Shown here in pieces: positions 19,034 through 63,123 of a stretch of 64,000 bases of DNA (position 1 is its first letter; each line of letters begins with the position of its first letter). The DNA is from Prevotella sp. (lineage in GTDB: Bacteria > Bacteroidota > Bacteroidia > Bacteroidales > Bacteroidaceae), in NCBI GenBank assembly GCA_017941345.1, contig JAGAWQ010000008.1:101418-165417 (forward strand). The letters run 5' to 3'. A program made the position numbers and the translations under genes. The notes beneath the pieces are model-generated. The model was not told the origin of the DNA, ran no database searches, and worked only from the letters and a program-made list of their open reading frames with translations.

Positions 19034-19041
19034 TACCTTTG
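19034..19041 (+). promoter_or_regulatory. Putative -7 element of the fimbrial operon
   Basis: TACCTTTG fits TAnnTTTG and lies 45 nt before the ATG at 19087. The -33 position shows only a weak TTTA (19007-19010), so activation by a regulator is plausible. Confidence 0.6.
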
Positions 19042-19086: not shown

Positions 19087-20655
19087 ATGGGCATGAAACT
19101 AAATTATCGCAATTGGACTTTTGTGTTGTTACTGGTTGTCTCCTCTGTCTCTTGGGCTCAGGAGGTGACTTTGAGTAACAATCTGCTCTATGATACCTGG
19201 CTGACTCCCAACCTGCGCGTCGGACTCCGCCTGTCGCCCCACTGGTCGTTAGGTTTGACGGCAGGCTATCGTCCTTGGCCTACCGACGATCAGGCAACAC
19301 GTAAATACAAGCACTTGTTGATTTCACCCGACCTTCGCTATTGGACCGATTCGGTGAATGTGCATCATTTCTTTGGTTTCAATCTTCTCTACGCTCATTA
19401 CAACGTAGGTTCCATCACCTTCCCACTTGGTTTCTGGAAGTCTGTTCGTGACGAGCGCCAACAAGGTGACTTCGGTGGAATCGGTGCTTATTACGGTTAT
19501 TCCTGGCCGTTAGGTCGTCATTGGAATTTCGAAGCTTTCATCGGTGCTGCCGTTGGTTATAATAAGTATGACCGCTATCAGTGTGCACACTGTGGTGCGA
19601 AGATAGGTAACGAGAAGAAAGTCGCTGTGATACCTCAGGCCGGACTGAACATAGTCTTTAACATTCCAGGTCGTCCCCGTCAGGTGGAAGAGCCTGTTCT
19701 GCAGTTGCAACCCGTCGTCGAGGCCCCTGTTACCGCTGCCGTTGTTGTCAAGCCGTTTGCTCCCGCCCTGACTGCCGTTCCCGATTTCAAGGGACGTGCC
19801 GGACAGTTGCAGCAGGAGAATCCTGTGGTGCAGCATATCTCCAACTACCGTCCTTACGACCGTACCCGCATCCTTCGTAAGGAGAAAGATGCCCTCTTTG
19901 TCCATTTCGACCAGGGCAAATCGCTGCTCAATGCCAATTATCGTGACAACCAGCGTGTGATGGACCGCATCGTCGACATCACCCGTCAAATCATGTCCGA
20001 CAGCGCCAGCAGCGTCAAGAAGATACAACTCATCGGACTTGCCTCCATCGAAGGTGCTCCTGCTGTCAATGAGCGGCTGGCCCAAAACCGTGCCTTGGCT
20101 TTGCAGAAATATATCCAACAGGAAGTCACCGTTCCCGACTCACTCTTTGAGACTGTTGGCGGTGGCGAAGCATGGGCCGACTTCCGCGACCATCTCAACG
20201 ACCTCGCCTCAGGTCCAGTGCTCGACGGTTCTGCCGTCGAGTCATCCCTCCGTCAGGCCATCGCCATCATCGACAATGAGCCCGACGACATCGCCAAAGA
20301 GCGCAAGTTGCGCAGCCTCAATGGTGGCAAGACGTGGAAATACATCCAGGAACACATCCTGAAAGATCAGCGCAACTCCGGTTATATCCGTATCTACTTC
20401 GACTATGTGCCCGATAAGGCGGCAGCCACTATCAACGAGGCCAGCGAACTGCTGACTACCGACTGTGGCGACTGCCATCGTGAGGCCCTCCGCTTGTTAC
20501 AGACCGTTCGCAATGACGAGCGAGCCCAGAACGCCTTGGGTGTCGCCCTCTGGCTCAACGGCCAGAAAGACGAAGCTCTCAGCTGCTTCCGCCGTGCTGC
20601 AGCCAACGGCAACAAAGATGCTTATAACAACCTCAGACAGTTAGAAAATCAATAA
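19087..20655 (+). CDS. DUF3575/OmpA-like outer-membrane-associated protein
   Basis: The 522-residue protein has a signal peptide (1-24, ending SWAQ) and an N-terminal beta-barrel-like region (about 27-195, NNLLYDTWLTPNLRVGLRLSPHW, GLTAGYRPWP) typical of DUF3575. A Pro/Val-rich linker (about 198-235) follows. An OmpA/MotB-like peptidoglycan-binding domain (about 265-400) contains IGLASIEGAPAVNERLAQNR, and a C-terminal TPR-like helical pair (about 450-522) contains ALGVALWLNGQKDEALSCFRRA. Such proteins often head Bacteroidales type V fimbrial loci; a role in anchoring or assembly at the outer membrane is inferred. The first fimbrillin follows after 30 nt. I see no catalytic motif. Confidence 0.8.
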   Translation: MGMKLNYRNWTFVLLLVVSSVSWAQEVTLSNNLLYDTWLTPNLRVGLRLSPHWSLGLTAGYRPWPTDDQATRKYKHLLISPDLRYWTDSVNVHHFFGFNLLYAHYNVGSITFPLGFWKSVRDERQQGDFGGIGAYYGYSWPLGRHWNFEAFIGAAVGYNKYDRYQCAHCGAKIGNEKKVAVIPQAGLNIVFNIPGRPRQVEEPVLQLQPVVEAPVTAAVVVKPFAPALTAVPDFKGRAGQLQQENPVVQHISNYRPYDRTRILRKEKDALFVHFDQGKSLLNANYRDNQRVMDRIVDITRQIMSDSASSVKKIQLIGLASIEGAPAVNERLAQNRALALQKYIQQEVTVPDSLFETVGGGEAWADFRDHLNDLASGPVLDGSAVESSLRQAIAIIDNEPDDIAKERKLRSLNGGKTWKYIQEHILKDQRNSGYIRIYFDYVPDKAAATINEASELLTTDCGDCHREALRLLQTVRNDERAQNALGVALWLNGQKDEALSCFRRAAANGNKDAYNNLRQLENQ

Positions 20656-20685: not shown

Positions 20686-22671
20686 ATGAAAAAGATGCTG
20701 AAGTATGCCTCACTGAGTGCGATAGCATTTGTAGGTGCAGTTTCATTCTCCGCTTGCTCGTCAAGTGATGACATGACTGAAAGTCCGAACAATCCGAATT
20801 ACAATCCGGAAACTAACAAGGTGAAAACCGAGTTTGTAATTAATGTGACACAGCCCGGCGAACGTACTCGTATGGCTGCTGATAATGCTGGTGCCGGAAC
20901 TTTCCAAGGGCTTGACAACATGCAGTTGATTTGTTTCACTAATACTCCAGGCACAGACAACGACTTTGGAGCAGATGATAAACTGACTCTGACTCCATAT
21001 ACTGGTCCGAGTGTTAGTGGAGATAACACTACCAACTCAAGCAAGGTATATACGATGTATATTCCTGTTAATACAACCAACTTCCTGTTTTATGCAACAA
21101 CATATGGTACTGTAGGTAATAACGATAAGTTTACTTATGGTTCATTGCAGAATAACCTAAGTTCTGTAACTACCACTACAGTTGTTACTTCACCTTCAGC
21201 ATCCACAGACATTACGTTCAATCTTGAGCCTATTGCTTCTACTCCTGAGACTGTTACCGCCCCTCAGACTACTTTGTTAGGTGTACTTAATGGAATAGCT
21301 GGCGCATCTTATGATAAGGGCACAGAGAGTACTGAAGACGATATCACTTGGGCGTCAACAGGATCTATGCCAACTCCTGCAACTCAATGGGTGGCTCTTA
21401 AAAATGCTTTTAACCAATTTACAAATCAAGCATCAGGTAGTGATGTCCGTCAGGGGTCAAGTGCAGCAATCCTTAGTATGGTTGTTGATTTGTTTGGCGC
21501 AGTTAATGATGTTTATACTAATGAGTCAAACGCGGATGCAAAAGGAGTGGCTAAGGCTATTTTGGATAAAATTATGACTTACTTCAATGTAACTTTATCT
21601 GGCACCACTTATACATGGGAGTCACCGGCATATAAATCTGATTACAACGTGGATTTCCCAGAGAGTGTGAATCTGCCAGCTTGTGCTGCAGTTTTAGTTT
21701 ATAATGGGACAAACGGATTCACCTATGTCAATGGAGGTACAATGGGTGCTGCAACTGTTTCTACAGCATACAATAAGTTCACCTATCCTTCTGAGTTAAC
21801 ATACTATTGTAATTCTGGTCTTTGGCAATCTACAACAAATAAAGATATTTCAGACTATCCTATAACTTCATCAACATGGCTTTCTTACGGTTGGAATTCT
21901 AATGGATGGAATAATAATGCAGTTAGTGCAGCAACTCGTGCCGTAGCTATGAAGGATAATATCACCTATGGTGCTGCTCAGCTTGTTTCTAACGTTCAAT
22001 TAGGTGCAAATGTTGGTGATGATGAAACTCATGCTTTAGAGGATAATGCATATGCTGTTACTAACCATGTGGAACCCGCAAACAAGAAATTCTATGGTTC
22101 TGGAGATAATGCCATTACCTTAAAGGTTCATGGATTATTGATTGGTGGCCAGCCTGATGCTGCTCGTTATGACTACCTGCCTCAAGGAGGAAACATTTCT
22201 AATGTTGTTTATGATAAATTCTCTCCTAACGGAACTGAAGTAACATCAACTGCGTGGGCTACTCCAAACTATACGCTCGTACTGGATAATTATGCAACTG
22301 GCGAAACACAGGCGACTGTAAATGTTGCTTTGGAGATGACTGCCACTAAGGACTTCTATGGTGCATCTGGTAAGATTAAAGCCGGTCAAAAGTTCTATCT
22401 TATTGGCTCTTTGGATCCAACATCTTTTGCTGCGAATGCTATTGATTGGTCAAAACATGTTAGTTTTAAGTCAACAGATACCGGTTACAATGTTAATCGA
22501 GTCTTCATCCGTGATGCAAAGACAACAGCTACATTTACGTTGGCTGCAAACTGTCTGCAGAAAGCATACTCTACCATTCCTGACCTGCGTTCAACGCAGA
22601 TGTTGTTTGGTGTCTCTGTTGATTTGGCTTGGAAGGCTGGTTTGACCTTCGACGTCAATATTGGAGAGTAA
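20686..22671 (+). CDS. Mfa1-like major fimbrial subunit lipoprotein
   Basis: The 661-residue precursor has a lipobox (FSAC, Cys24) followed by a Ser/Asp/Asn-rich stretch and then FVINVTQPGERTRMAAD. The basic GERTR lies where type V pilins are trimmed by a protease before polymerisation. Two beta-sandwich regions follow, with an Mfa1-type segment SVNLPACAAVLVYNGTNGF near residue 330 and a C-terminal AANCLQKAYSTIPDLRSTQM block. Type V pilins polymerise by donor-strand exchange after the lipoprotein is trimmed (known for Porphyromonas gingivalis FimA/Mfa1). It is longer than Mfa1 (about 560 residues). Its base composition is more AT-rich than the neighbours, which fits rapid divergence or exchange of a surface antigen. 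Confidence 0.82.
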   Translation: MKKMLKYASLSAIAFVGAVSFSACSSSDDMTESPNNPNYNPETNKVKTEFVINVTQPGERTRMAADNAGAGTFQGLDNMQLICFTNTPGTDNDFGADDKLTLTPYTGPSVSGDNTTNSSKVYTMYIPVNTTNFLFYATTYGTVGNNDKFTYGSLQNNLSSVTTTTVVTSPSASTDITFNLEPIASTPETVTAPQTTLLGVLNGIAGASYDKGTESTEDDITWASTGSMPTPATQWVALKNAFNQFTNQASGSDVRQGSSAAILSMVVDLFGAVNDVYTNESNADAKGVAKAILDKIMTYFNVTLSGTTYTWESPAYKSDYNVDFPESVNLPACAAVLVYNGTNGFTYVNGGTMGAATVSTAYNKFTYPSELTYYCNSGLWQSTTNKDISDYPITSSTWLSYGWNSNGWNNNAVSAATRAVAMKDNITYGAAQLVSNVQLGANVGDDETHALEDNAYAVTNHVEPANKKFYGSGDNAITLKVHGLLIGGQPDAARYDYLPQGGNISNVVYDKFSPNGTEVTSTAWATPNYTLVLDNYATGETQATVNVALEMTATKDFYGASGKIKAGQKFYLIGSLDPTSFAANAIDWSKHVSFKSTDTGYNVNRVFIRDAKTTATFTLAANCLQKAYSTIPDLRSTQMLFGVSVDLAWKAGLTFDVNIGE

Positions 22672-22676: not shown

Positions 22677-22740
22677 TTCCCCCTCGCAGGGAAAAACTTT
22701 TTTCCTGCCTAGGAAAATATTTTTCCCTGCCTTGGGAAAA
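22677..22740. repeat. Three tandem palindromic repeats, about 22-nt period
   Basis: Imperfect palindromes centred near 22685, 22708 and 22730 (ttccccctcgcagggaa, tttcctgcctaggaaa, ttttccctgccttgggaaaa) follow the fimbrillin stop. They share layout and spacing, but not exact sequence, with 10019-10077. Any of them could form an mRNA hairpin, so the set might lower read-through and set the ratio of the major subunit to downstream genes. Confidence 0.8.
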
Positions 22741-22779: not shown

Positions 22780-23850
22780 TTGAGACGTAAACTGAACATA
22801 GTAAGCATGATGGCGGGGGCTGCTTTAATGGCGGTCCTCGCAGGATGCTCTGCGATAGACGAGAACATGGACGACTGTGGCGAGCAGGCGCAGATGGATT
22901 ATGAGCTGGAGCTGGTGACCAACGTATCAACGGAGGTTCAGACGCAGTTAAACACTGAAACCGATGTCGAACTGGCTGCCACGCTGAAAAACTATCTCAG
23001 TAGCATCTTTACAGACTATGCTCACGACGTTAACCTCTCTTTCTATGCTACGGGGGGCGATTCTATGCGACTCCACCATGATGAGCATATCATGAACAGC
23101 TCGGAGCATAGTTACACGCTCTTCATCCCACGTCAGAAGTATATGCACCTGGCCGTTGCCAACGTCGAAGGCGACCCCGTGGTGTATCTGGACGGTATGG
23201 AGAATTGTCATACGGCTGCTCTTCGACAGGTGGCGGGCGACACCATCGAATCGCACAACACAGGTATCTTTACTGCTCGTCAGCTGATGGAGATGATAGA
23301 GGGCATCGACCAGACGTTCAATGTGAAGCTCTTTATGGCTAACTGTTCCGCTATGCTGAAGGTAGATCCGCAGGGGCATGATGTCAGCAAGATGCGCGTC
23401 TTTGCCACGGGCTTTGCCACTGCCTTCTTTATTGCAGACAGCGTCTATGAGTACAAGACACCAGCTCCGATGATTCGTGCCACCCGTCTGGATGCCGACG
23501 AAAGCGGACTGGTTGGTTTTGTTACCGTCAACTTCCCTTCGCGTGAACCATCTTCATCTTCGCACTCTTCGGTATCAGGCGCTACCCGTACTGTCATTGA
23601 GACCACCGATCCCTTCATTGCCCAGCCTGGCGATGAGGTACTGTGGGAGTTCCACATCTTTCTTCCACAGGCAGATGGTACGACAACCAAGACTGTCTTA
23701 GGCATCAAGGAACCTTTGCGGGCTGGCCAGTTTAAGATTATCAAAGTGAAGATTGGCGATAAAGGTCAGGTTGTACCTGAATCTCCTACCGTGGGTGTCA
23801 GTGTGACGCTCGACTGGAAGCCTGGCGGCACGTATAATCCAGAGCTATAA
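22780..23850 (+). CDS. FimB/Mfa2-family fimbrial anchor lipoprotein, TTG start
   Basis: The 356-residue protein begins MRRKLNIVSMMAGAALMAVLAGC, a classic lipoprotein signal with Cys23, followed by SAIDENMDDCGEQ. The body has the FimB/Mfa2 pattern: strands around LELVTNVSTEV, LSFYATGGDSM, YTLFIPRQKYMHLAVANVEG, and a late MLKVDPQGHDVSKMRVFATGFA. In P. gingivalis, FimB and Mfa2 cap the fimbrial base and hold it in the outer membrane. No ATG gives a signal peptide with positive charges; the first ATG is at codon 10, so TTG at 22780 is the likely start. It sits second in the fimbrillin cluster, as mfa2 does after mfa1. Confidence 0.82.
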   Translation: MRRKLNIVSMMAGAALMAVLAGCSAIDENMDDCGEQAQMDYELELVTNVSTEVQTQLNTETDVELAATLKNYLSSIFTDYAHDVNLSFYATGGDSMRLHHDEHIMNSSEHSYTLFIPRQKYMHLAVANVEGDPVVYLDGMENCHTAALRQVAGDTIESHNTGIFTARQLMEMIEGIDQTFNVKLFMANCSAMLKVDPQGHDVSKMRVFATGFATAFFIADSVYEYKTPAPMIRATRLDADESGLVGFVTVNFPSREPSSSSHSSVSGATRTVIETTDPFIAQPGDEVLWEFHIFLPQADGTTTKTVLGIKEPLRAGQFKIIKVKIGDKGQVVPESPTVGVSVTLDWKPGGTYNPEL

Positions 23851-23873: not shown

Positions 23874-25595
23874 TTGAGAAAAGGACAGAAGACATATCAG
23901 GCAGTGTGGCTGTTATCAGCGTTTATGCTGATGATGCTGACAGGCTGTAGCAACCATGACGAGTTGACATCCTCCCAGGCTGAGTCCGTCACGGTAGAGA
24001 TGGCCTACGCCCTGAATCCGACTGTCCAAACCGTCACGACCAGACAGGCTGGTACCGTCATAGGAAACAATACGCCATATCGTGGCCCTGAAAATTTCAG
24101 GCTTATACCTATGATAGGCGATGTGACTACGCTAGCAGAGGTAACGTGGCAAGGTCCTGTTGATAAGACCTCCCCACAATCGAAGTTCTACTATTCCAGT
24201 TACTGTAACCTTCCGATAGGTGTTAATCGCTGTTTAGTATATGGCAAGCCTGCCGATATAACTCAAACTGGGGGAGTGGACACCCAGGTGTATAACGGAG
24301 CCATCAATGAGCCCTTCCCCATCTTCATGGCTAATGCTGGTGATCTCGAAGATATCGAATTCAGTCCCGTTCCTATATATAACAACATTAACAATGATAA
24401 TAAGTTGGTCATTCCTACGGATGCTTCCACATTGGCGGGCTATTTGACCGAGGTGGCGAATACCGAAGGATGGAGCAATTCGGGAATTACTGCTATACTG
24501 GAGCTGCGACAGAAATTCATCAATAGAGGCAATGATCTGCCAGGGTCGGCTGCCAGCGTGAAGGCTTTGTTAAAGGCCTTGGCTACAGAGGCTGATTATT
24601 TGAAATCATTTTATTCGATTAGCTTGTTGGATAGCATCAATAATGCCGCCACGACTAAGGCAGATGCGATAACTTCTACCGTCACCTATCCCCGCAGCAT
24701 CAATCTGCCCGACGGGGCTGCCGCTTTGCGATGGGTAGAGAGCGAAAATGCTTTCAAACCTCAGATGTACACCACGACGCTCGACGACATTAATACAGTG
24801 TCGCGCTTTGCCTATCCTGCCTCGCTGTATTATTTCGTTAATAGTGGTATCAACACTTCAACGGAAGTGGTTGACTATGAAGCGATATATGCCAATGCTA
24901 CCACAGACCCTGATAAGACGGCATGGTCGTATGTTCTCGACAATTTTACCGCTGGTCCTACAGTGGAGGGCACTACTCGCTCCGTAGCCTTGACCAATCC
25001 TGTGCAGTATGCCGTAGGCCAGTTGCAGGTGAATGTCGTGGCCAGCAGTGCGACGCTGAAAGATAACGATGATCATGATGTTGACTTAGGCACAGACAAT
25101 TTCCCCCTGAAAGGCATCATTGTTGGTGGACAGCGTCCGGTGGACTATGAGTTTAAGCAGACAGAAAACACCGATACCAAAGTGAAATTCCTGTACGATA
25201 GTCAGGTGGAGACGTGCACCCTTTCCACCTCGTCGCAACTTGGGTGCCAAACGCTGGTGCTGCAGAGCTATGATGGCGAGGATGTGGACATCGTATTGGA
25301 GTTTGAGAACAATAACGACAATCTGACCTTCACGGGTGTCAACGGTTGCCGTGTCTATCCGCACACCCGTTTCTATCTGGTGGGCAAGATCCTAGCAAAG
25401 CTAGAGGGGAACATAGTTGATGATAAAGACAAGCGTGTGTTCACCAAAGACTATATTACTACTGTAAATCTGACGGTGGCCTCGCTGAAAAAGGCCTATA
25501 ACCTGTTGCCCAGTTTGCTGACCGGACACTTGGAGTTGGGCATTGAGGTATCAGACTGGATGGCAGCCACGCCGGATGTTGTTATATTAAAATAA
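23874..25595 (+). CDS. Second Mfa1-like fimbrillin lipoprotein, TTG start
   Basis: The 573-residue protein has a signal peptide with lipobox (LTGC, Cys25) and closely parallels the 661-residue fimbrillin: SINLPDGAAALRWVESENAF matches SVNLPACAAVLVYNGTNGF, FAYPASLYYFVNSGI matches FTYPSELTYYCNSGL, and the C-terminal block VASLKKAYNLLPSLLTGHLELGIEV matches its counterpart. It is probably a paralogue that polymerises in the same or an alternative fimbria, or a minor subunit near the tip. The start is TTG at 23874, in the same agtttgaga context as the preceding gene. It begins 23 nt after the anchor gene, and the next gene starts 5 nt after its stop. Confidence 0.8.
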   Translation: MRKGQKTYQAVWLLSAFMLMMLTGCSNHDELTSSQAESVTVEMAYALNPTVQTVTTRQAGTVIGNNTPYRGPENFRLIPMIGDVTTLAEVTWQGPVDKTSPQSKFYYSSYCNLPIGVNRCLVYGKPADITQTGGVDTQVYNGAINEPFPIFMANAGDLEDIEFSPVPIYNNINNDNKLVIPTDASTLAGYLTEVANTEGWSNSGITAILELRQKFINRGNDLPGSAASVKALLKALATEADYLKSFYSISLLDSINNAATTKADAITSTVTYPRSINLPDGAAALRWVESENAFKPQMYTTTLDDINTVSRFAYPASLYYFVNSGINTSTEVVDYEAIYANATTDPDKTAWSYVLDNFTAGPTVEGTTRSVALTNPVQYAVGQLQVNVVASSATLKDNDDHDVDLGTDNFPLKGIIVGGQRPVDYEFKQTENTDTKVKFLYDSQVETCTLSTSSQLGCQTLVLQSYDGEDVDIVLEFENNNDNLTFTGVNGCRVYPHTRFYLVGKILAKLEGNIVDDKDKRVFTKDYITTVNLTVASLKKAYNLLPSLLTGHLELGIEVSDWMAATPDVVILK

Positions 25596-26755: not shown

Positions 26756-26768
26756 TGTGAACGAGACG

Positions 26769-27821
26769 ATGAACAGGAAGAGATATCTGACATATGGGAT
26801 GTGGGTTGGTCTGATGACCGTCATTCCTTTCTTGCTGCAAGGCTGTAGTCAGGATGCTACGCTGCCTGACCAACAGCAGCCGGGAACGTCCATGCAGCTA
26901 AGCGGCGTTACCAGATTCGGAAGCACAGAAACCGTGACGGACGCTCACATCCGTGTGTTCTTGGCAAGCGGTGATGCAGTGACTGAAGGTTTGTTCACTT
27001 ATAACAACCAAGAAGAGTGGAATTCAACGGTAAAGGTCACACAGGACAACACCTATCATGTCTATGGCTATATGCCCTCTGATATTGCTGATAGTCATAA
27101 TGTTACCGCTGGCGGAACGATGACGTTGAACGGTCTGAAGGCAGTCTCCGACCAGGATGTCTGTGTGCTGGTGGGCATTCAACGTGTAACAAGCTCTAAT
27201 GCGGAAAAGAGTGTTGTTGAGGGCAACTATACTTATGAGGCCGGTGCTGAGGGTACGAATTATGCATACGTGCTGATGGACCACCTCTATGCATCTCTCA
27301 AGGCCAGCTTCAGCGTGAATGCGGACTATGCTGACTTGCGGCAGATTTATCTGAAGAAGGTGACACTTATATCTAACTATTCCAAGGTCAATGCAGTGAT
27401 TACATTTACGGACGGAAGCGGACTGACGAATACTAATGTGATAATGACCAATGTCACCCCGGCAACCGAAGGCTCCGCCACCACGACGCTGCCTAATAGC
27501 GATAGTGGCAAGTACGGAACCAAGTTGCTGAAAACAGGTTCTGGCACGTGCGATGTGCTGCTCTACTTCGCCCCAACTCTCTTTGGCAATGCTGATGACG
27601 CGGTAACCGTCAAGAGTACCTACGATGTCTATGACAGGAAAGGTAATCTGGTGCGCAGCGACTGTACGGCAGAGAACAAACTGGCGTTCAGTAAGATATT
27701 CGGAACAAACGTTAACATTGCCAGAGGTGTTCAGTATCAGTTGAAAATGACGGTGAATCCCACCTATTTATATATGCTGTCTGAGCCCGACTTGGACAAC
27801 CCCACTGTCGAGGTTAATTGA
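26769..27821 (+). CDS. Fimbrillin-family lipoprotein, probable tip or adaptor subunit
   Basis: The 350-residue protein (start ATG 26769; an upstream GTG-type start would overlap the previous gene) has a lipobox LLQGC (Cys26). The mature part contains SGVTRFGSTETVTDAHIRVFLASGD and TVKVTQDNTYHVYGYMPSDI, the early strands of fimbrillin-like domains, then YVLMDHLYASLKASFSVNADYADLRQIYLKKVTL and a closing VARGVQYQLKMTVNP-like strand. It lies directly before the first giant gene, so it could link the fimbria to that protein (inference). Its stop codon lies in the 25-nt repeat shared with 11916-11940. Confidence 0.72.
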   Translation: MNRKRYLTYGMWVGLMTVIPFLLQGCSQDATLPDQQQPGTSMQLSGVTRFGSTETVTDAHIRVFLASGDAVTEGLFTYNNQEEWNSTVKVTQDNTYHVYGYMPSDIADSHNVTAGGTMTLNGLKAVSDQDVCVLVGIQRVTSSNAEKSVVEGNYTYEAGAEGTNYAYVLMDHLYASLKASFSVNADYADLRQIYLKKVTLISNYSKVNAVITFTDGSGLTNTNVIMTNVTPATEGSATTTLPNSDSGKYGTKLLKTGSGTCDVLLYFAPTLFGNADDAVTVKSTYDVYDRKGNLVRSDCTAENKLAFSKIFGTNVNIARGVQYQLKMTVNPTYLYMLSEPDLDNPTVEVN

Positions 27822-27845: not shown

Positions 27846-27862
27846 TTAAGAGTTTAGAGAAA

Positions 27863-57700: not shown

Positions 57701-60700
57701 TTGGCGGAAACAACAAAGCAGGAACAATCACCGGCTCCATCACCATTGATGTAGAAGAGCATGGTTGTACACCTATCGAGATTGACGAGCTGTATGCCGG
57801 TGGCTATCTGGCTCCGTATTCTGTCTATGGTTACTCTACTGATACGAGAGAAGTAAAGGATGAAAATGGGAATGTGATTACAGGAGTAACACAGCGTATT
57901 CCTTACAAGAAAGGTGATACGGGTGCATTAGCAACACCATCCCGTGATCCGCAGATTAATATCATCTCTGCAACAAAGATAGGTAAAATCTATGGTGGCG
58001 GTTATCAGGCAGACTTGATTGGTTCACCTCATATTAACGTCAATATGACGAGAGGTGTAATTACACAGAAGTATGCTTCGAGCTATACTGAACTTAATGA
58101 AACTGATGGCGAAGGAAATAGATACCTTCCTATCGGAACCATTGGTACTATCTTTGGCGGCGGTAACCGTGGCGATGTCTATGGTGATACATACGTAGAG
58201 ATTGGTACTGGAGAATGGTTGAACTTAACCGGTCAGAGAGAAACCGCAGATGCTGATGGTAAGGTTTACGTCTATAATTCGACCACCAAGAAATGGGATT
58301 GGACTAAAAAGGTTGGTGATACCACAGAATCAGGTACCGTAGACAATAAGCCCGCTCCGGCCCGTAATGCTGCATATATTTTGAGAGAAGAGAGTACTGG
58401 TGGACAGGTCTATGGAGGTGGTGACCAGGGTGATGTCTTTGGTAACACCAATGTCAACATCGGTAATGGTTATATCTATGACCGTGTCTATGGCGGTGGT
58501 AAAGAAGGTACGGTAGGAGAAGATTCTACTCGTGCTGCACTCCCAACAGGGCATGATACTCACGATGGCTGTCTCAAAGGTAAGCCAACGGCCTTTACTG
58601 CGAATACTGGTAAATCTACAGTTACAGTCAGTGGTGGCTATGTGGGTCCATTTACTTACACGAAGTCTAGAAGTACCGGTACCACTACGATTATACCAAT
58701 GACGATGCCTCAGGACTTCGGTTACGTATTCGGTGCTGGTCGTGGTGAATTGACGAATCCGGCTACTGATCCGGATATCGACTTCAGAACCTATGTTGAT
58801 AGCACAGTGGTAACAATTAGTGACAGCGCCTTGATTGCCGGTGGCGTATATGGTGGTTCTGAGAACGGTCGTGTGCTCCGTAATACGCATGTCAACATAC
58901 AAGGTGGCCAGATTGGTCTTGGTGCTAACAAGACAGCAGCTTACGCTGAGACTGCCTTCATTGACCCGACGACGGCTACGGCAGAGGAGATTGCTACGAA
59001 AGCAGCAGCCATGCCTGAGTGTGGTCACTGGAATTACGGCAGTCCATGGCTGCCATACGACGAACATGCTGGTGATGACAATTATCCGGCATTAACTTAT
59101 GGTAATGCCAGCACTACTGGTTCTGACGGTCATACGTTCTATGGTAACGTCTTTGGTGGTGGCTCTGGTTATTGGAGTTACGTGAAGTCAGATGGAACGC
59201 ACGAGTGGCTCCCGTCTGCCGGACTGGTAGAGGGTAACACGTATGTGAACATCAGCGGTGGTCATATCCTGACGAACGTCTATGGCGGTAACGAGATGAC
59301 AAATGTCACCGGTACTGCTCACGTCACGATGACGGGCGGTACGCTGGGTGTGCCTCGTACGCTGGCTCAGATTGCTGCTCACCCCGTGACCTGCTACCTC
59401 TTCGGTGGCGGTAAGGGTGACCAGCGTGTACACTTCAGCAAGAGCACCAACGTAGGCCATGCTGTCGTGAACGTCTCTGGCGGTATCATCTACGGCTCCG
59501 TCTTCGGTGGCGGTGAGGATGGTCACGTATTGGGTAATGTGACGATGACCATCAGCGATGGTGCCAAGATTGGTACATGGGGTACCAGTTACGTGGATGG
59601 TAATGTCTTCGGTGGCGGTCGTGGTTTCGCTGGTGACTCATACACTGCTGGTAACGTGGCCGGTAGCGTGACCCTGAATATCACGGGTGGTACCATGCTG
59701 GGCTCTGTCTATGGTGGCGGTCGTCTGGGCTCTGTGGGCTACGGACTGTTCAGCAAGGATAAAACTGGTTATGGCGAGATGATGGCTGACAATGCTACGG
59801 AAACCGGTTACGTTCCTGTTGGCGGACTCACGAAGGGACGTGGTCATGTTGAGGTTAACATTAGCGGTGACAATACCGTCATCGGTAACAAGTATGAATA
59901 TCAATACATTTCGCCAGAAACAACAGGCGATGCATTGGCCACGGCAAAGACCTATCTGCCAAGTACCCAGTTTGAGAGCAACAACCGACTGAAGCATACC
60001 CGTGGTGGTAACGTCTTTGCAGGCGGCATGGGACGTTATACTCAGTTGGATGGCACAACGCCTATCTCTACTTACAATGAGTCTGGTATTTTGACCTCTG
60101 ATATCGAATGGAAGAAGCTGGGTAACGTCAAGAGTACGAAACTGACCATCAGCGGTAATCCTTGGATTATGGGTAATGTCTATGGCGGTGGCGAGTATGG
60201 TGCCGTACAGGGATATCACACCACAGCAGGAAAGAACTACAGTACGGAGATTCTCTTCTCGGGTGGTACTATCGGTACGGAGATTACAACGACTGATCCT
60301 ACAAAGAAGACCATTGAGAATACTGATGCAAGGAGTATTGTTCAGTACACCTTCGGTAGCATCTATGGCGGTGGTATGGGTCAGGAGAATCACGATGCGA
60401 CGGACAGCCACGGTGGTACTGTGAAAGACAGTACTTATGTCAGCATGAGCGGTGCGGGCGCAAAGGTTCGCGCCAGCGTCTTTGGTGGTGGCGAGATGGC
60501 TGTCGTTGAAGGTAACACTCGTGTCAATATCAGCAATGGTGAGATAGGTCGTAACGAGGTGAAGCCTGCTACTGATGCTGATGCCGGCTACGTGCTCTTC
60601 GGTGGCGCTACGATGGGTAATGTCTATGGTGCCGGTAAAGGTCTTCTTGGTCATACCAATGCCGGACAGGTGAAGGGCAATACCAATGTCAGCATTAGTG

Positions 60701-63123
60701 GCGGTAATGTCTATCACAACGTCTATGGTGGCGGTGCACTGGCTTCGGTGGGTACGTTCAGCCTGTCTAACGGAACAGATGCTCCTGCCTATATTCCTAT
60801 CGCTGGTGTGCCGTACAACTGGACGGAAGGCACCGGTACGGCTACAGTTACTATCACGGGTGGTACCATCGGTATCAGCGGACGTGACAACGGACTGGTA
60901 TTCGGTTCTTCGCGTGGTGGACTGCAGAAGCCTGTCGATGAAGATCCAGGTGAAGGTGAGAAGCTCGTTGATCCATACGACCGTGTGGCATGGGTGAACA
61001 AATCTGTTGTCACTATCGGTACGAGTGGTTCAGGGGCAACGCTGAACACACCGCTCGTCAAAGGCTCTGTCTATGGCGGTGGTGAGAACGGTCACAACAA
61101 CGAGAGTGCTACGGTGAACGTCTATAGCGGTACTATTGGTGTAACAGATACTGAAGATACGTGGTATAGCTTCACGGATAAGACACTCGAAAAGGATGTT
61201 CAATTGTACCGTGGTAACGTCTATGGTGCCGGTAGTGGTTCGGATACCTATACGGGTGATGATAGTAAACAACACTACAACCCGAAGTCGGGTATGGTAG
61301 GTGGCAACACCTTCGTTAACATTGCTGGCGGACACGTCGGACGCTCTGTCTATGGCGGTGGTGCTATGGCAACGGTAGGTACGATTAAGAGTGAGACCAA
61401 GCATGAATCTATAGAAAACGGCTTCGGTCTCAGCTGGCCGTATAAGTTCGAGTTTGCTGCGAACACGGGTAAGGCTACCGTCAACGTGACGGGCGGCCAT
61501 ATCGGCACCCGCCAGCTGGACGGTGGTGATGTCTATGGTAGCTCGCGTGGTGAGGCCGGCGACCGCTATGAGATGGCAAATCTGGCATTGACCAACGAGA
61601 CGGAGGTGAACATCAACTATCCTACGACCATTGATATGACGAGCGAAAGTGCCATCCAGGATGACTTTACGAAGCAGTGTATCACCGGTTCTGTTCACGG
61701 TAGCGGTGAGAACGGTTACGTCTATGGCGATACCAAGGTGACACTGAACGAGGGTCTGATAGGTCACTCACTCTATGGCGCCGGTAAGGGTAATGGTACC
61801 TATACCAAGGCATTGAATAAGATTGGTGGCGGTGGCACCTACGATGCCAAGATATACAGTCTCATTGCTGGTAAGGTGATGGGTAACACTGAAGTCACCA
61901 TGAACGGTGGCCGCGTAGGACGTAACGTCTATGGCGGTGGTAACATGGGCTCTGTCGGTAAGGGTAACTATGCCGGCGGTGCTGACGATTACTATCCTGC
62001 CGGATATGGCGAGACGATTACTGGTAATCTGTGGTCAACGACTACCACCGCTGAAAATCCTGATAATGCATGGGAGTTCCTGAATAGTGGTAAGGCAACC
62101 GTGAACGTTATCAGCGGTATCGTAGGCTACATCGATGCAACGAATCCTGAAAACAGCATGAAGAATGAACTGCCATATGGTAATGTCATTGGTGGTAGTG
62201 CCGGTGAGGCTGCACCCAACATTTCTGACGATCCTCGTTATGAGTATAGTCCGGCATTCTTCTCTGGCTACGTCAATGAAACGGATGTGACGATTGGTGG
62301 CTATCGGTGTACGACGGCTTATGACGATTATAAAGTTAATGATTGTATTACCGCTAAGCAGTATAATGCTCTTACTGGTAACCAAACCAACTGGGAACTC
62401 GTAGGTCCTACCATCTATGCTTCAGTCTATGGTGGTGGTCAGGATGGTCACGTACGCCGCGACACGAAGGTGACTGTACTCGGTGGTGAGATAGGTGTGC
62501 CTTATAAATCCACATCTGATTCTCGGACAGCACTCCTGACAAACTATGGCCTTGACGACCCACAGTGGATGCACCGTGGTAATATCTATGGTGGTGGTTC
62601 TGGTATCACGAAGTATAAGTACGACTTCAACTACGATGGTGATACGGAGGATGACAACGAGCAGAACTATAGCAACTCTTCTGGTTCTGTAACCCGTTTC
62701 ACGGAGGTTAACGTCCTGGGTGGTACTATTCACCGTAACGTCTATGGTGGTGGTTCAAATGGTTCTGTAGGTGCTCCGAAGATAGAGGAATCGCAAGGAG
62801 ATCTTTCTAAGAAGGATCTGACGAATACCGCAACCCTTGGTAAGCAGTCACAGAATACCGTCAACATCGGTGGTGGTACGAGTGTTGTCACGATCGGTAC
62901 ACCATTTGATACTACCAAGGGCTGGAGTTACGACAAGACCTATGGCGGTGAGGTTTATGGCGCTTGCCGTGGTATGTCAGACCTGGATCCTGATGCATTT
63001 GCAACATCGGTATGGACACAGATTAAAGTCAAGAATGGTGCAAACATTCTGGGTAATGTCTATGGCGGCGGTGATAATGGTAAGGTGAAGAAGGATACAG
63101 ATGTAGTAATTGGTGCTCAATGA
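39778..63123 (+). CDS. Giant YGGG-repeat surface protein (up to 7,781 residues)
   Basis: One uninterrupted frame of 23.3 kb. The ATG at 39778 is the longest option, but it puts about 84 residues before the hydrophobic signal (RLCLVIIMLLALMTLGATNAFG, about 85-106), and part of that leader is translated from 11-nt repeats; ATG 39934 or 39940 may be the true start. After the signal come about four modules of roughly 200-330 residues (Y-K-x-I-D..., IYVTYE, DPYxVxIxS). A GLUG-like strip follows near 1,320-1,480 (GNVGGIVGNLHG). From about residue 2,040 to the end there are YGGG repeats, organised in three large super-repeats. It ends with VYGGGDNGKVKKDTDVVIGAQ-like sequence and has no sorting tail. 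Probable role: extracellular repeat protein of the fimbrial locus; anchoring and ligand are unknown. Confidence 0.85.
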   Translation: MTHYMTEMIITERNTYRKTESAHCHTVDKEMATCTQGVPKVYPRCTQALGRLMSMLRVWLEAAWKQPRRSLEYAYNEITAHSLTRLCLVIIMLLALMTLGATNAFGVTITYHIINLGRLDDNGNITATRTEALQFTSTETTLGVPDKYKSPLAKNWKYYKFDEITYNQTTKAYTFPESTTLVEGTSEMASDAHIYVTYELDETALTSFGVIDGGVCYIKFSNNKYLRQSVFSNQPNTDSDATLAGDGKNLWKINIKDPYQITIQSKSTAYTDYYLSTDNGKFPDIRLKSPLSTAKNQKVWAFGLLPGGVDNTYRLIVTDAYTQNNNTLDSFKHGYLNNNDGNGNFKTRFSTYGGENHYNCDLTFEPQTNTYTYHIIDTKGNEAISYTMPAATPMGQALESYTDIPAAIRSPYLKDETVTFLSNFTDFDHLDDNRITETPVTGTDIYVVYTTDYLMEKFLHLRGARALNLKVNGEYIYDSGTAGAGTFAHKAEPTDSEKGSNQYFWFFSGNDPYAVEIKNAATNNIIGYATPSSSPTSLTLNTSPANSKFIIMATSGGGEFQQMELMAATGDNTYYRVGYTDGAYNISTTATGDASLQIQAYPNSATITYKLIDQAGKILLNIETKSDAVELPSDWQSALVDKYNYWKVGAFDITGDVYKLQAAPESFRINNITDAEDNVIYVTYEVNDKVTFDISDDDKTHSGEYPTYMLKFHNGQEFNQENGTDGIENSPQKAEYPYSNGDAMLYVYSDTRRETQFTSGASTRPRWLWYAVSPKAAKVNTGSGEVDVTPGYKGDPYHVKIMSHSAQASSHNYFRTYVVNYGGSNHVVTGVTTKNENVDASHDNQLPTEYMILSAPNGRYKLVTLNEIEGAPENGSYGTRQTVNTFEQYWKNNPTVQNKLGNAKVTDSESTTDDGIELTSAQASLLTGWHTYKAWANAAPWVSWSEDGKTGKQYHNKHHWFQTIDMGATGEFTFEAATLDPEVILLDQHGWEIMRAPLADAAALRKYDSPMVQEYQWYPTAAKVTGYHKYKVSDPTIIVYEPVVVSGKTKWQNSGETYTHTSKSLADSPYDHIFPAQDKSVKTDFYVTYTVKPEYARLYAGAATEDAVNPSAFMVKQGNEYAKISDGNTFAPTTDNPYALASIGDEWHWYVKPNFNIDVEMGYKYDVEEDDGTGGTYTPNQAQKDAKNYEEGRNGFDPYNIQIQSVKSSTYYFKTTTTGSHLNKGAWEGTSTDLSLKNMSAGRQENVDGNDQTKLSITNATFMVIKDASDHWLLMPRFDHTKVVNSFSGTQLSAPNAATQTLELIMAPKIIHSSNEFASLNGQYTLAEDFKFESDFTSLGSSDAPFTGSIDGMLHALGGLDNLTTPLIAYADGAIIKNIILDNVTVGNAKGENEEDIPNVGAIVANATGETRIYNCGINGGSVGGTGNVGGIVGNLHGEEITVDGKKKYIGARVINCYSYATITGGTNVGGIVGYNDYKTTASKIATMVMNCAFYGDITGGGTISPIYGGENINNLNSGGLNTFNYYAYDNLKSTAVSTYNCAQGVQDVFWNRFEQYRQLLNSNRKLAAHYASSTEATVKPSDMMKWVLETADRSIVAPNEPKAYPILKVQDKYPSIINFDAEHAPDSASVGRNKGGKLGKTLTVHLSGTGITTSELTLQRTDKDFDRFNFNYDKVQLPYFNDVGEGNYTNNQVVTGWKITGMTGGTTGTYTAADNFGGYNFADRKCTAKDIFGTSGRVFSQGAYFDVPYGVTDIYIEPYWGEAVYVADHYLDVVYNTSYNRQDVSQLPETYGDDGVEVSINGSTQKVWHTIGTAVGKLSSGGTVYDHAVVLVGNVHLEGNPPTDGKSFTVMSADLDFDNEPDYSFIFGHNNRQPVSPIRFDFINMPGIAMAQKPNGATSFRNVSIFNPKGWFETTNTCITRLVQFEYDNGGKSAAPVILQGGMIDQFVSTKVSEPKVTTYLHLGGNTWFKDFGNGTHSDGDKFTPHIPISVTGGDFDGFYLSGTYKPDAAVKADNAECYISGGRFKEAAGAAQQQIDGDVQWQIYNADIENFYGGGVNAGKPVTGDITVDIINSHVGTYCGGPKFGNMQSTKTVTTNATGSTFDYFFGAGYGGISYNRVRTQDKSAKDVDFSSWQGDYTGKRGKYYSANSGIASDFDYEFFVWSTGAAGGRFYVKYSSLSTAQTNNVTSTLTNCIVNRDFYGGGSLGNVVGTATSTLDGCTVEGNVFGGGYSASQPKVPVRIGGFKTNKIPKIDTNAGVFDMGEMTDTENFTLVQGTLTNNASAIDNNAKTIITDVDLTTLGQVTNTDLTIKGNTIVKGQIFDAEGNVTETTGGVYGGGDMSAVNGNTKIDIQNTDATGGVLNVFGGGNTADVIGNSQVDMTGGKVIQSVYGGGKGQTTIVGGNVIVNMGTKTGEAPSITYSGTGVVQGDVYGGSALGKVNTNTTADKTTTVNVYGGTVNGSVFGGGLGQVAVAADPGNSIAAKPAIVAENQGNTTINVEGGLVKTAVYGGSNVNGVLQKDATVTLIGGTVGVAENQNGNVVFGGGKGAPTLVNGNVTVNVGTKSDAEPPVYAGAATIHGHVYGGGELGNTNASKPESELVFDATKTTSVNLYGGTINGYAYGGGLGSAETPAYVGGDVTVTLDGAKVQQVFGANNINGTPKGHVKIWVKKTNNFTDNEYKNTTTTPRASRTTYDVQAVYGGGNQADYIPADALLDPAVEGNSAKIAAATAEVIIEGCDKTSINAVYGGGNAAAVPATDVTVKGSYIINTLYGGGNGESTPTFTNPGANVGIYKVGDTPTNYGTGKAVTKLLGGFINDVYGGSNTKGDVRDGTDVRTKGKTEVITGDCCTDLNVGQVYGAGSQADVKGDVNIILECMPDDFVDAVYGGAKNATINGNVSLTVTSGKFGRVFGGNNEGGSINGSITVNVYEDGCKPLIIGEVYGGGNAAPYSIYGCTQSGDTWTANESGDLHFDQEAEGRAAIQVNVVACTSVGKVFGGGMGTSAKVIGNTNVDVNLIKGIVNGSKQSTIGKVGQVFGGGGFAEVKGNTLVEVGTKLANEGEDEGVNIISGTDYLDPSDGSLDETITAGIYGGGYSADIDGNTTLNIGTKDQRIGEDPSVTISGDIFGGGFGATTHVTGDVVVNIGKRTNTALEGDPVYAYEGYANITGDVYGGSAQGKVNSYLNNSVETASEGKTTHVNFYGGTINGNIHGGGLGDLASLGAGHADHAADVYGPVIVTMEKGSTTNTTVNNVFGCNNVLGTPKNTVTVNINGGTVNHSVYGGGNQAAYTPTESTSNYPAVNIINGTITENVFGGGLGTTATATSNPHVTIGDNVEGHVATILKSVYGGGSEASVDGNTNIVVNSGTIGTEGQGGPVYGNIYGGGYGSSANVRIGLVTGNTNVTVNGGNVLHNIYGGGAYGSVGTYTYASEDVNAAISALATPNTGKATILIKGGTIGTDGHENGMIFGASRGDIDRPGVIQDNMAWVYDTEVIIGTEGQGEVVSTPSIKGSVYGSGENGHTYHDASVTIHSGMVGIMDAMPSDPVGQEGSKYPYRGNIYGGGCGTDKYYENSENETHDGHGTLYNPAAGIVRGNATVAIDGGHVVRNVYGAGAMGSVIGQTTVNISGKSVIGANGSGGGYVYAAARGADDMSANCATVGSTALNISGGTVWGSAFGGGQLGTVKGSVAVNVSGGVVKNDVYGGGALANTNTDNWTLGALTPTYINITDVLTIGTSPVVGLYTKSGDVYTEITDPDAKAATSTIYYEKRMLPGTWADGKSSTSNTTSVILTGGVMGNVYGGGLGDDTTPVYAFGDVKVIINKPDDIATLGGHGAAFTQNAEDVTVGGTVYTGVPLTGRIFGCNNIKGTPLGDVLVEVYSTRQINSNGEIVAGHKNYEIQAVYGGGNQADYAPAVGKETKVNIYGCEESSIARVYGGGNSAWVPSTNVTIWGSYDIEYAFAGGNGGQPIKTSSGWVANEGAGVNGHARITCHGGKIGEIFGGSDFRGIVRKATTTQAQQGSCPLRITKLYGAGKEADVDGDVNVVISGCTTENSQIEYVCGGSYKANISGSIHLTITAGYFQNVYGGNDQRGSIGGDIIVDIEETDPCKPIIINNLVGGGNQANFPGKKNDVELPDRTPKRTITVNVKSATYIGNVYGGSFMAETKANTFVNINMIQGNHAGQSRVLPADFGKEGTTIPENIKNVTTSYVAVSPTPSEGTSVVGYYTKSGDDYIPASGTADGSTTYYDKQVTGTIDNAIGIIGNVYGGGKQGLVIGDAQVNIGSSTEVPIMKRINGTIVDTSDASIYDGDGKQIPNKTIAYVNQTVQGAHITGNVFGGGEQAVVTGNAEVFICSNKTGATTYNTIAEGSEKVTIGGSVYGGGSEADVLANARVTMAGGYVYDGVYGGGLKGSVGTFTRDKTVTTESNNFDHSTHSANCEGKPTACSDGTGTCTVVISGGQVGPVEVATKGMKNEGGNGPVDVGFVFGAGRGDVENPNDIKDADFHTFVNKTDVTISGGLIMASVYGGGENGRVLNDTHVTISGGQIGCGKDQVDENGKPKPYTNDQFFNPTTTAVSESNALPECRSWDYGKDTNGDGIKDEFLPYDPFAAATDTEDAKIGTDGHTYYGSVFGGGSGYYPYEIKNIQGTVTGHEWLRSAGAVYGNTVIDITGGHILTCVYGGNETTDVGTYEDNEQGYPIKWVSGGTCTITMSGGTIGVPRTEQQMKDHPVTCYLFGAGKGDQRTHFNTWTNVQSTTVNVTGGIIYGSVFGGGEDGHVLGNTAVNINNGAVIGTTGTSYVDGNVFGGGRGFSGEALTAGSTGGNATVTITGGTMLGSIYGGGRLASVGIGFTPPEDVYYGQLIDDSGDKHYGHISINISGGTIGNGTTETGADHPISGNVFGGSMGRITLLDNKTRIPLWPKQAVVKLTNVIISGGTIYNSVYGGSELGIVRNRATVTVSDNADIRGNVFGGGYGSDEQDKKTISAGGYNDIPTVYYTFTPMIWTGCVSGDTYVNIAGGKIGKNVYGGGNYASVGLMNYNSSEDGTTYNYITKHDTENGFGLSWPYEFQYIKAAPTDGAPGGNAIGGKTTVNITGGRIGTTASAGYGNVYGGSKGMVTLKKENNVDFITDVNEQRYAEAFCANVRETAVTVNYGSTPSSDDGSTTACIVGAVYGGGQDGHVYENANVTITNGLIGLSVYGGGQGESTFAGKLRDQSTGEWKATTEPVHSITAGKVYGNTSVSMTGGLVVGHVYGGGNLASVGKGNYAGGADDYYPAGYGEKLTGNLWDNVSNNSKAFLGSGNVTVSITGGKVGTPGGTSGSVYGTTDATPTGMVFGGSRGRASEDIMLDPRHEYAPDFYLGYVNNTSVTIGSPDGAPNIYSQVFGGGRDGHVRDSAHVVVNNGFIGQPYNDFGSTETDDYQRYHRGNVYGSGSGLGQWTTGKHGMSSGSVTRNTTVDIYGGTIYNNVYGGGAMATVGPPLIGTSEFASSDWSKCTVNIYGGTIGEEEVYNAHKFGGTIYGGSRGDRGGDLGTGESINNYASVLWTEVNIKPHPTDRSKDAVIAGNVYGGARGGQIKKDTKVNLLGGVIKHNAYGGGRGTAVAADVLGNTTVELNKDVASTAKGCIVDKIFGCNDLKGTPKGHVLVHVYGTQNSGTTDMQMKVGPGSRTSLGQGNSEGYIVYMERLIALAKDGGVLKPGITESVITTAQATIDDKSENSLTDNEKTAISNEAKNVIAELQKLQGYDVTAVYGGGDLAPYVPTVAEEQTEVIIEGCDVTSIKQVYGGGNAAYVPATNVLVKSAYVIDELFGGGNGLDNYVKDDKWYENPGANVGYKELAHYDTGGSHGDGEAEGTKYEAITNTDPDATTPEGRKANYAIGTGIASTTVNGGYIHNVYGGSNMKGNIRAEALLQVEQAGTCALVTDEVYAGSKSATIDAETNTVLDCVENGGTIYGGSYNADVLNDVHIRITNGHYSKVFGGNNKAGTITGSITIDVEEHGCTPIEIDELYAGGYLAPYSVYGYSTDTREVKDENGNVITGVTQRIPYKKGDTGALATPSRDPQINIISATKIGKIYGGGYQADLIGSPHINVNMTRGVITQKYASSYTELNETDGEGNRYLPIGTIGTIFGGGNRGDVYGDTYVEIGTGEWLNLTGQRETADADGKVYVYNSTTKKWDWTKKVGDTTESGTVDNKPAPARNAAYILREESTGGQVYGGGDQGDVFGNTNVNIGNGYIYDRVYGGGKEGTVGEDSTRAALPTGHDTHDGCLKGKPTAFTANTGKSTVTVSGGYVGPFTYTKSRSTGTTTIIPMTMPQDFGYVFGAGRGELTNPATDPDIDFRTYVDSTVVTISDSALIAGGVYGGSENGRVLRNTHVNIQGGQIGLGANKTAAYAETAFIDPTTATAEEIATKAAAMPECGHWNYGSPWLPYDEHAGDDNYPALTYGNASTTGSDGHTFYGNVFGGGSGYWSYVKSDGTHEWLPSAGLVEGNTYVNISGGHILTNVYGGNEMTNVTGTAHVTMTGGTLGVPRTLAQIAAHPVTCYLFGGGKGDQRVHFSKSTNVGHAVVNVSGGIIYGSVFGGGEDGHVLGNVTMTISDGAKIGTWGTSYVDGNVFGGGRGFAGDSYTAGNVAGSVTLNITGGTMLGSVYGGGRLGSVGYGLFSKDKTGYGEMMADNATETGYVPVGGLTKGRGHVEVNISGDNTVIGNKYEYQYISPETTGDALATAKTYLPSTQFESNNRLKHTRGGNVFAGGMGRYTQLDGTTPISTYNESGILTSDIEWKKLGNVKSTKLTISGNPWIMGNVYGGGEYGAVQGYHTTAGKNYSTEILFSGGTIGTEITTTDPTKKTIENTDARSIVQYTFGSIYGGGMGQENHDATDSHGGTVKDSTYVSMSGAGAKVRASVFGGGEMAVVEGNTRVNISNGEIGRNEVKPATDADAGYVLFGGATMGNVYGAGKGLLGHTNAGQVKGNTNVSISGGNVYHNVYGGGALASVGTFSLSNGTDAPAYIPIAGVPYNWTEGTGTATVTITGGTIGISGRDNGLVFGSSRGGLQKPVDEDPGEGEKLVDPYDRVAWVNKSVVTIGTSGSGATLNTPLVKGSVYGGGENGHNNESATVNVYSGTIGVTDTEDTWYSFTDKTLEKDVQLYRGNVYGAGSGSDTYTGDDSKQHYNPKSGMVGGNTFVNIAGGHVGRSVYGGGAMATVGTIKSETKHESIENGFGLSWPYKFEFAANTGKATVNVTGGHIGTRQLDGGDVYGSSRGEAGDRYEMANLALTNETEVNINYPTTIDMTSESAIQDDFTKQCITGSVHGSGENGYVYGDTKVTLNEGLIGHSLYGAGKGNGTYTKALNKIGGGGTYDAKIYSLIAGKVMGNTEVTMNGGRVGRNVYGGGNMGSVGKGNYAGGADDYYPAGYGETITGNLWSTTTTAENPDNAWEFLNSGKATVNVISGIVGYIDATNPENSMKNELPYGNVIGGSAGEAAPNISDDPRYEYSPAFFSGYVNETDVTIGGYRCTTAYDDYKVNDCITAKQYNALTGNQTNWELVGPTIYASVYGGGQDGHVRRDTKVTVLGGEIGVPYKSTSDSRTALLTNYGLDDPQWMHRGNIYGGGSGITKYKYDFNYDGDTEDDNEQNYSNSSGSVTRFTEVNVLGGTIHRNVYGGGSNGSVGAPKIEESQGDLSKKDLTNTATLGKQSQNTVNIGGGTSVVTIGTPFDTTKGWSYDKTYGGEVYGACRGMSDLDPDAFATSVWTQIKVKNGANILGNVYGGGDNGKVKKDTDVVIGAQ
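39876..39995. repeat. 11-nt tandem arrays at the 5' end of the second giant gene
   Basis: gtgtacccaag is repeated four times exactly (39876-39919). A degenerate series with 11-12-nt period follows (ctagaagcagc, ctggaagcagc, ctaggaggagc, ctagagtatgc) to about 39990. The other 11-nt arrays of this window lie between genes, so this suggests that the DNA up to about 39995 is leader rather than coding sequence. Confidence 0.85.
47731..51351 (+). repeat. Super-repeat 1 of the second giant protein
   Basis: It begins with VFGANNINGTPKGHV, then YDVQAVYGGGNQADY, EVIIEGCDKTSINAVYGGG, VYGAGSQADVKGDVNI and GGNNEGGSINGSITVNVYED. The same ordered series recurs in super-repeats 2 and 3. A partial copy of the opening motif (VFGCNNVLGTPKNTV) lies at 49534. 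Confidence 0.75.
51352..56655 (+). repeat. Super-repeat 2 of the second giant protein
   Basis: It opens with IFGCNNIKGTPLGDV, then YEIQAVYGGGNQADY, KVNIYGCEESSIARVYGGG, LYGAGKEADVDGDVNV and GGNDQRGSIGGDIIVDIEE, in the same order as super-repeat 1. It continues with blocks that match super-repeat 3: HPVTCYLFGAGKGDQR near 53950 and NYAGGADDYYPAGYGE near 55565. Confidence 0.78.
56656..63120 (+). repeat. Super-repeat 3 of the second giant protein, incomplete
   Basis: It opens with IFGCNDLKGTPKGHV, then YDVTAVYGGGDLAPY, EVIIEGCDVTSIKQVYGGG and GGNNKAGTITGSITIDVEE, followed by HPVTCYLFGGGKGDQR near 59380 and NYAGGADDYYPAGYGE near 61965. It stops at NVYGGGDNGKVKKDT, which corresponds to NVYGGARGGQIKKDT near 56460 in super-repeat 2, about 190 nt before the next motif would be due. 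Confidence 0.78.

Follow-up and report, generated by a model that had tools for sequence, protein, structure and literature searches.

What takes the place of the tip protein when a type V-like fimbrial operon ends in two giant repeat genes? Type V fimbriae are best known from Porphyromonas gingivalis and from other oral or human gut species. The locus in question lies in 64,000 nucleotides (nt) of a Prevotella genome (contig JAGAWQ010000008.1, positions 101,418 to 165,417; this whole stretch is called the window), whose source assembly has 2.05 Mb in 191 contigs and is 60% complete. Eight genes, A to F, G1, and G2, are all encoded on the + strand according to the open reading frame (ORF) list and translations of the window, with intergenic distances from A through G2 of, in order, 30, 108, 23, 5, 10, 41, and 29 nt. 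These data confirm the gene order, strand, gaps of 5-108 nt, and giant sizes (3,961 and 7,781 amino acids, aa) given in a first-pass annotation. The operon itself, for type V-like fimbriae, belongs to a known class. Our reading, to which we give a probability of about 0.62, is that at its end a giant protein stands where P. gingivalis has its tip protein, Mfa5. From sequence and models, this reading is supported by gene order and its conservation, the pilin fold predicted for F, the solenoid predicted for the start of G1, and the sorting-like tail of G1.

In this system, the products of A to F, for the most part exported lipoproteins, would serve as the outer-membrane partner, the shaft, the anchor, and tip-type subunits. 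G1 would be exported by Sec and would then pass the outer membrane by the type IX secretion system (T9SS) via its C-terminal tail. As a long beta-solenoid it would join the fibre tip, or the cell surface beside F, and would bind glycans or other cells; G2 would be a second, longer solenoid partner. We infer the fibre attachment, the binding role, a single transcript, and the solenoid fold and surface place of G2, and by analogy that G1 takes the Mfa5 role as an elongated solenoid adhesin with its seat close to F.

The profile of E and its relatives matches the Mfa3 structure 5nf4 at 1e-5, and E itself matches NCBIfam models NF038041 (4.3e-11) and NF052322 (2.6e-11), each under its own cut-off. 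F is predicted to fold like the Mfa/FimA proteins, and thus provides, by its model, the pilin-fold subunit of a type V operon; an alternative in-frame start of F lies further upstream at 26703, overlapping E. C had been called FimB/Mfa2-like. Pfam Mfa2 (PF08842) is reached by 3 of 25 aligned C members (best 1.4e-5); the window copy is not among them. The DUF3575 assignment of A stands, with its OmpA match weak. B and D, earlier labelled Mfa1-like, have no Pfam match in their window copies, B has no family match by Pfam, PDB sequence, or PDB profile search, and the B/D profile matches nothing in PDB; among the 24 aligned members, Pfam matches are weak and confined to single members. In the same 24 rows Cys24 is invariant and Arg62 almost invariant. 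The lipoprotein status of B and D comes from a lipobox read by eye; its Cys is invariant in the B/D, E, and F alignments and at least 90% conserved in that of C. Arg is conserved in the B/D and E alignments, which hints at Arg processing as in type V fimbriae. PDB sequence searches with B, C, E alone, B/D, F, and the G1 repeat gave no matches or chance-like ones.

G1 is 3,961 aa long, or 3,969 aa if started at TTG 27839, and the Gln following its signal peptide is invariant across 20 aligned rows. Both giants are rich in YGGG repeats, as first noted. The motif [VIALF][YFH]G[GASC] occurs 35 times in G1 (mean 4.5, maximum 11) and 124 times in G2 (mean 9.7, maximum 16), the backgrounds being 100 composition shuffles per giant. 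The AlphaFold2 (AF2) model of the first 410 mature residues of G1 (pLDDT 95.3, pTM 0.94) is a parallel beta-solenoid, so that the start of G1 is predicted to have this fold over the residues modelled. Its best-ranked fold match is an adhesin, with other folds within about 1 Z: close to 5nxk, the serine-rich repeat protein (SRRP) of Lactobacillus reuteri, stand an antifreeze protein (8.4), a tailspike (8.3), and PfbA (8.1). Unlike G1, the SRRP belongs to another phylum, and the two share 12% identity. At its other end, the tail of G1 scores 22.9 bits against TIGR04183 (cut-off 23), or 18.7 bits within the whole protein, and TIGR04183 is found at E<=0.01 in 28 of 34 G1-type tails. One giant with a sorting-like tail had been noted at first pass, and G1 has it. 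TIGR04183 and a weak Lepto_8Cys, both under cut-off, are the NCBIfam matches of G1; in Pfam there is no match at E<=0.1, hence no match to a von Willebrand factor (vWF) domain.

Are the giants linked to fimbrial genes elsewhere? In a scan of 200 genomes of the genus with the C-terminal part of G1 as query (E<=0.001), 58 genomes match. Upstream flanks were taken for 40 of the 44 listed homologues, and F lies immediately upstream of G1 in 38 of them. The flanks comprise 25 with a C homologue (window type), 13 with F and without C, and 2 with neither. Profiles of the alternative type were seeded from 10 of the 13; in one seed, L021, Pfam identifies the two leading genes as DUF3575 and DUF5119. 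A second set, the best 80 of 306 stretches encoding relatives, overlaps the first and is not independent of it. Here F is upstream of G1 in 77 loci; the exceptions are L132 and L169, with less than 350 nt of upstream sequence each, and L175, which lacks F and is apparently the same as genome G181. By profile, the 77 loci are 43 window-type, 30 alternative, and 4 unclear. The F-G1 gap (n=75) has a median of 15 nt and is below 300 nt in 73 cases, with two outliers of 1,563 and 1,950 nt. Strong matches, by our own cut (F >180 bits, G1 E <1e-70; some matches lie near contig ends), are found for F in 51 genomes, for G1 in 52, and for both in 48, leaving F alone in G109, G097, and G104 and G1 alone in G181, G008, G134, and G175. 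At E<=0.001, F matches 77 of the 200 genomes, many of them weakly. Of the 33 downstream stretches fetched, 27 have a YGGG-rich ORF after G1; among the other six, five hold at most 8.3 kb and one (G116) 19.5 kb. In relatives, four proteins encoded between G1 and YGGG ORFs gave nothing informative in NCBIfam. The association of a giant solenoid with fimbriae that the first-pass annotation proposed is thus upheld: homologues are not routinely found away from fimbrial genes, G008 and G181 being real exceptions; the second giants of these two have no F-like neighbours. The giants are no assembly artefact, since other genomes too have open frames about as long.

At the family level, the start or repeats of G1 are matched in 55 of 301 genomes and 9 of 30 genera, the longest ORF having 11,866 aa; at the order level, 7 of 295 genomes match, including the window's own. 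In G302, from another genus, G1 is preceded by a DUF5119-type-profile ORF (89.6 bits), several lipoprotein-like ORFs, a weak E (17.2 bits), and F (131.8 bits), and is followed by YGGG ORFs; stretches L190-L191 of this genome hold parts of the 11,866-aa G2-type open frame. In G071 and G158, F-like genes (70 and 72 bits) precede a giant of 6.3-6.4 kaa. There (L181-L184) the giant has a CTD-like (C-terminal-domain-like) tail and comes after fimbrillin-like and F-like genes, and past it is a second giant of 2,873 aa in G158 and at least 3,409 aa in G071. This arrangement is possibly a single-chain version of the system.

The border between F and G1 also appears to be a point of exchange. A tree was built from 60 G1 starts, of which 30 are window-type, 24 alternative, and 6 unlabelled. 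Fitting the operon type to it takes 4 changes, where shuffles take 18 on average and none of 500 is as low; the type thus switches more than once. The window, with its window-type cassette, clusters with L101 and L103 of the alternative type (support 100/90). Against L101, L103, and L115 it shows 73-76% identity in G1, over 3,700-3,900 residues, and 29-31% in F. Compared with L107, identity is 81% for A, 80% for E, 81% for F, 67% for D, 46% for C, 33% for B, and 55% for G1. The tree favours replacement of the fimbrial part next to a giant that was kept; the reverse direction is less likely.

G2 opens 29 nt past G1, its first 85 or so residues forming a leader. Behind the signal-peptide-like core come a non-repeat N-domain, a stretch with a sub-threshold M26_N match, and about 5,700 YGGG-rich residues, including a super-repeat (residues 4374-5579 against 6208-7776, 38-50% identity). 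In some relatives the G2 region is split in two ORFs, matching residues 369-2382 and 2206-7779 in G032 and residues 1346-2382 and 2180-7781 in G022. The consensus end of 15 G2-type tails is GADIRGNVYGGGNNAEVTGNTNVxIGKK, from which the window's own tail (NILGNVYGGGDNGKVKKDTDVVIGAQ) deviates. None of the 15, the window's tail included, matches TIGR04183, so that no T9SS sorting domain is recognised; one matches the surface-domain model NF045517 (4.3e-4).

The repeat-filled leader seen at first pass proves to contain 11-nt arrays. Relatives have 11- or 22-nt arrays at the same site, many with different unit sequences. Eleven leaders carry such arrays (window, G189, G195, G198, G090, G131, G037, G035, G119, G067, and G013), a set that excludes G196, G116, and G157 (arrays with no adjacent start or giant) and loci of other periods, and whose members are not independent because some are close kin. 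From its first ATG, each of the 11 has an open frame of at least 208 aa through the arrays, and in 8 (window, G189, G195, G198, G090, G131, G013, and G037) the signal-peptide core is in that frame; in G035, G119, and G067 the long frame alone is seen. Since the frames stay open and the core is in frame, translation of the leader is suggested. A copy change of 11 or 22 nt shifts the frame, and phase variation of G2 by this route is therefore a possibility. The G037 leader was considered as an 'off' state and rejected, for its frame break is located past the signal peptide.

Several observations weigh against our reading. G008 and G181 retain G1 without fimbrial neighbours; the neighbouring cassette is exchangeable, so a tight fit of the giant to one shaft is not needed; G2-type tails are without TIGR04183; and a terminator-like stem in the B-C gap speaks against one unbroken transcript. 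The first two would suit giants that anchor themselves on the surface as adhesins, as many T9SS cargoes do, and that merely adjoin the fimbrial genes, by shared regulation or co-inheritance, without ever entering the fibre. We hold this to be somewhat unlikely: the same pilin-fold F adjoins G1 beside two cassette types, genomes with both genes (48) outnumber those with one (3 and 4), and plain co-regulation does not demand one constant neighbour.

The lack of a T9SS tail, together with the signal-peptide-like cores, could also mean that G2 is not exposed, and is a periplasmic scaffold or is cut up there. This is unlikely, in our view. Repeat proteins of such size are usually extracellular, one tail matches a surface-domain model, and the terminal unit is well conserved when the 15 tails are compared with one another, as would fit a terminal signal or contact.

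A bolder version of the fimbrial reading is an exchangeable-shaft fimbria capped by a composite giant solenoid, in which F seats G1, G2 exits through a new pathway and joins G1 end to end as a stack, forming a spear of the order of 100 nm, the length of an Mfa1 fimbria, and the 11-nt-repeat leader switches G2 on and off. The conserved terminal unit of G2 would be a solenoid unit resembling those at the start of G1. If each beta-solenoid coil adds about 0.48 nm and is assumed to take 20-25 residues, the G2 repeats would span roughly 110-140 nm, an estimate and not a result. Mfa1 fimbriae are about 100 nm long (PMC7835359). The window's G2 tail departs from the consensus, however, and tail conservation was judged among tails and not against internal units; we consider the composite improbable. 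The long and short filament forms suggested at first pass are not supported. Least probable is that the giants belong to some other secreted system, such as a matrix that resists proteases or a beta-helix enzyme of the glycan-lyase kind, since neither Pfam nor NCBIfam gives G1 a catalytic match above cut-off and Pfam gives G2 none (one peptidase-region match is below it), the best-ranked fold match is an adhesin (others within about 1 Z), and linkage to fibre genes would be left unexplained.

How close is the fimbrial system proposed here to known ones? It resembles Mfa1-Mfa5 and FimA-FimE of P. gingivalis in being a same-strand operon of lipoprotein pilins with a candidate anchor and candidate tip-type subunits; unlike these, it is led by a DUF3575 gene. 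Mfa5 is described as an ancillary tip protein, exported by the T9SS and encoded last in the operon (PMC7835359, PMC8313007). The mfa5 genes are given as 2.9-6.6 kb, with a vWF domain in genotypes A-C and none in genotypes D and E (PMC8313007); tandem copies and variation independent of mfa1-4 are on record (PMC7835359, PMC8313007). G1 is like Mfa5 as a large protein behind pilins with a Sec signal and a T9SS-type C-terminal domain (CTD). It differs in that G1 and G2 have 11.9 and 23.3 kb, YGGG repeats, and no vWF match, G2 is without a CTD, and G2 comes after G1, so that G1 is not the very last gene. We do not file G1 as a member of the Mfa5 family because no vWF domain was found and homology to Mfa5 was not compared; it may still work like Mfa5. 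Giant1-5 of Apilactobacillus kunkeei are reported as extracellular proteins of 3,000-8,000 aa from consecutive genes, Giant1-4 with predicted beta-solenoid N-terminal domains resembling serine-rich repeat proteins (PMC12863079). The window shares with them the consecutive giant genes and, for G1, the predicted beta-solenoid start, a likeness of description. A. kunkeei, as a lactic acid bacterium, is not known to have a T9SS, a difference from G1. The SprB-like gliding adhesins of Flavobacteriia are very large, repetitive surface proteins exported by the T9SS; they are tied to gliding and not to type V fimbriae. In literature titles and abstracts (subscription papers and preprints being outside this scope), none of the matches listed describes a giant YGGG protein at the Mfa5 position that is followed by a larger one lacking a CTD.

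The operons occur in many ruminant Prevotella relatives: among the best 80 of 306 relatives, 61 carry a ruminant or RUG label (RUG presumably meaning rumen uncultured genome). Pfam has no family describing these very large repeat proteins, which reach an 11,866-aa open frame among relatives. If our reading is true, the giants are candidate means for rumen bacteria to hold feed particles, hosts, or each other, possibly as unusually long built-in grappling arms on or beside fibres. It raises the questions of how a 7,800-aa protein leaves the cell without a T9SS tail and how a constant giant functions beside exchanged shafts.

Table 1. Features of the operon and its surroundings (positions in the window)
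Feature	Position	Strand	Basis
AraC-type transcription regulator, before the operon	17382..18947	+	PF12833 1.9e-15
TACCTTTG, candidate Bacteroidota -7 promoter box	19034..19041	+	pattern TAnnTTTG
A, DUF3575 protein (weak OmpA and TPR matches)	19087..20655	+	PF12099 9.5e-49
B, lipoprotein, candidate fimbrillin	20686..22671	+	Cys24, Arg62 conservation
Terminator-like stem then AAACTTTTTT, B-C gap	22677..22693	+	simple pattern scan
C, lipoprotein, candidate Mfa2/FimB-type anchor	22780..23850	+	PF08842 in some members
D, lipoprotein related to B, candidate fimbrillin	23874..25595	+	23% identity to B when aligned
E, FimA/Mfa3-type fimbrial subunit, candidate tip subunit	25601..26755	+	PF06321 9.4e-7
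F, lipoprotein, predicted type V pilin fold, usual G1 partner	26766..27821	+	
7-nt tandem repeat, 4.7 copies of TAATTGA, spanning the F-G1 junction	27815..27847	+	
G1: signal peptide, then Gln; YGGG repeats as far as residue 1,700 or so; different sequence, then a T9SS-like tail	27863..39748	+	
First 410 residues of mature G1, predicted beta-solenoid	27926..29155	+	AF2 model, fold comparison
T9SS type A sorting-like C-terminal domain of G1	39521..39745	+	TIGR04183
G2: leader, signal-peptide-like core, N-domain, YGGG repeats; 7,781 aa	39778..63123	+	
In-frame G2 leader ahead of signal-peptide core	39778..40032	+	
11-nt array CAAGGTGTACC x4.4, G2 leader	39872..39919	+	
Second 11-nt array GAGTATGCCTA x6.0, also read as period 22, G2 leader	39936..40001	+	
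YGGG-repeat region of G2	45937..63120	+	
C-terminal repeat unit of G2	63043..63120	+	15 aligned tails

Relatives of the AraC-type regulator are also found upstream of some homologous operons. TACCTTTG is the sole TAnnTTTG, which we take to be the Bacteroidota -7 element, on the + strand among the gaps preceding A to G2; its site is not among the matches of the two-part pattern TTTG N17-23 TAnnTTTG. Terminator-like sites number 18 on both strands of 18700-28500, against a shuffled mean of 7.9; given these and the B-C gap site, termination or attenuation within the fimbrial part is possible. At the G1-G2 border (39300-40400) the pattern scan gave no terminator-like site. The 7-nt repeat at the F-G1 junction, like two more near gene borders in the window, might tune the translation start. 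A sigma-70-like site in this gap (27818-27846) overlaps it; sigma-70 pattern scanning is doubtful for Bacteroidota.

Tandem repeats are also seen elsewhere in the window. Further 11- and 22-23-nt arrays outside the giants lie at 8369-8400, 9819-9877, 10014-10081, 22690-22743 (in the B-C gap), and 63725-63822, and 7-nt repeats stand near gene borders at 11909-11940, 16639-16670, and 27815-27847 (AATTGAT, CATTCAA, and TAATTGA). Among 238 arrays of the window and L101-L180, periods of 7/14 account for 72, 9/18 for 64, and 11/22 for 33. The signal peptides encoded at L023:14109-15341 and of an E-like lipoprotein of L029 consist of near-repeats such as MRLMGLMGPMRLMGLIGL. Positions 11-13098 hold a probable fructan-use locus (part of a TonB receptor, SusD, DUF4960, two GH32, and an MFS transporter), amid whose genes a VapE-like gene lies on the minus strand.
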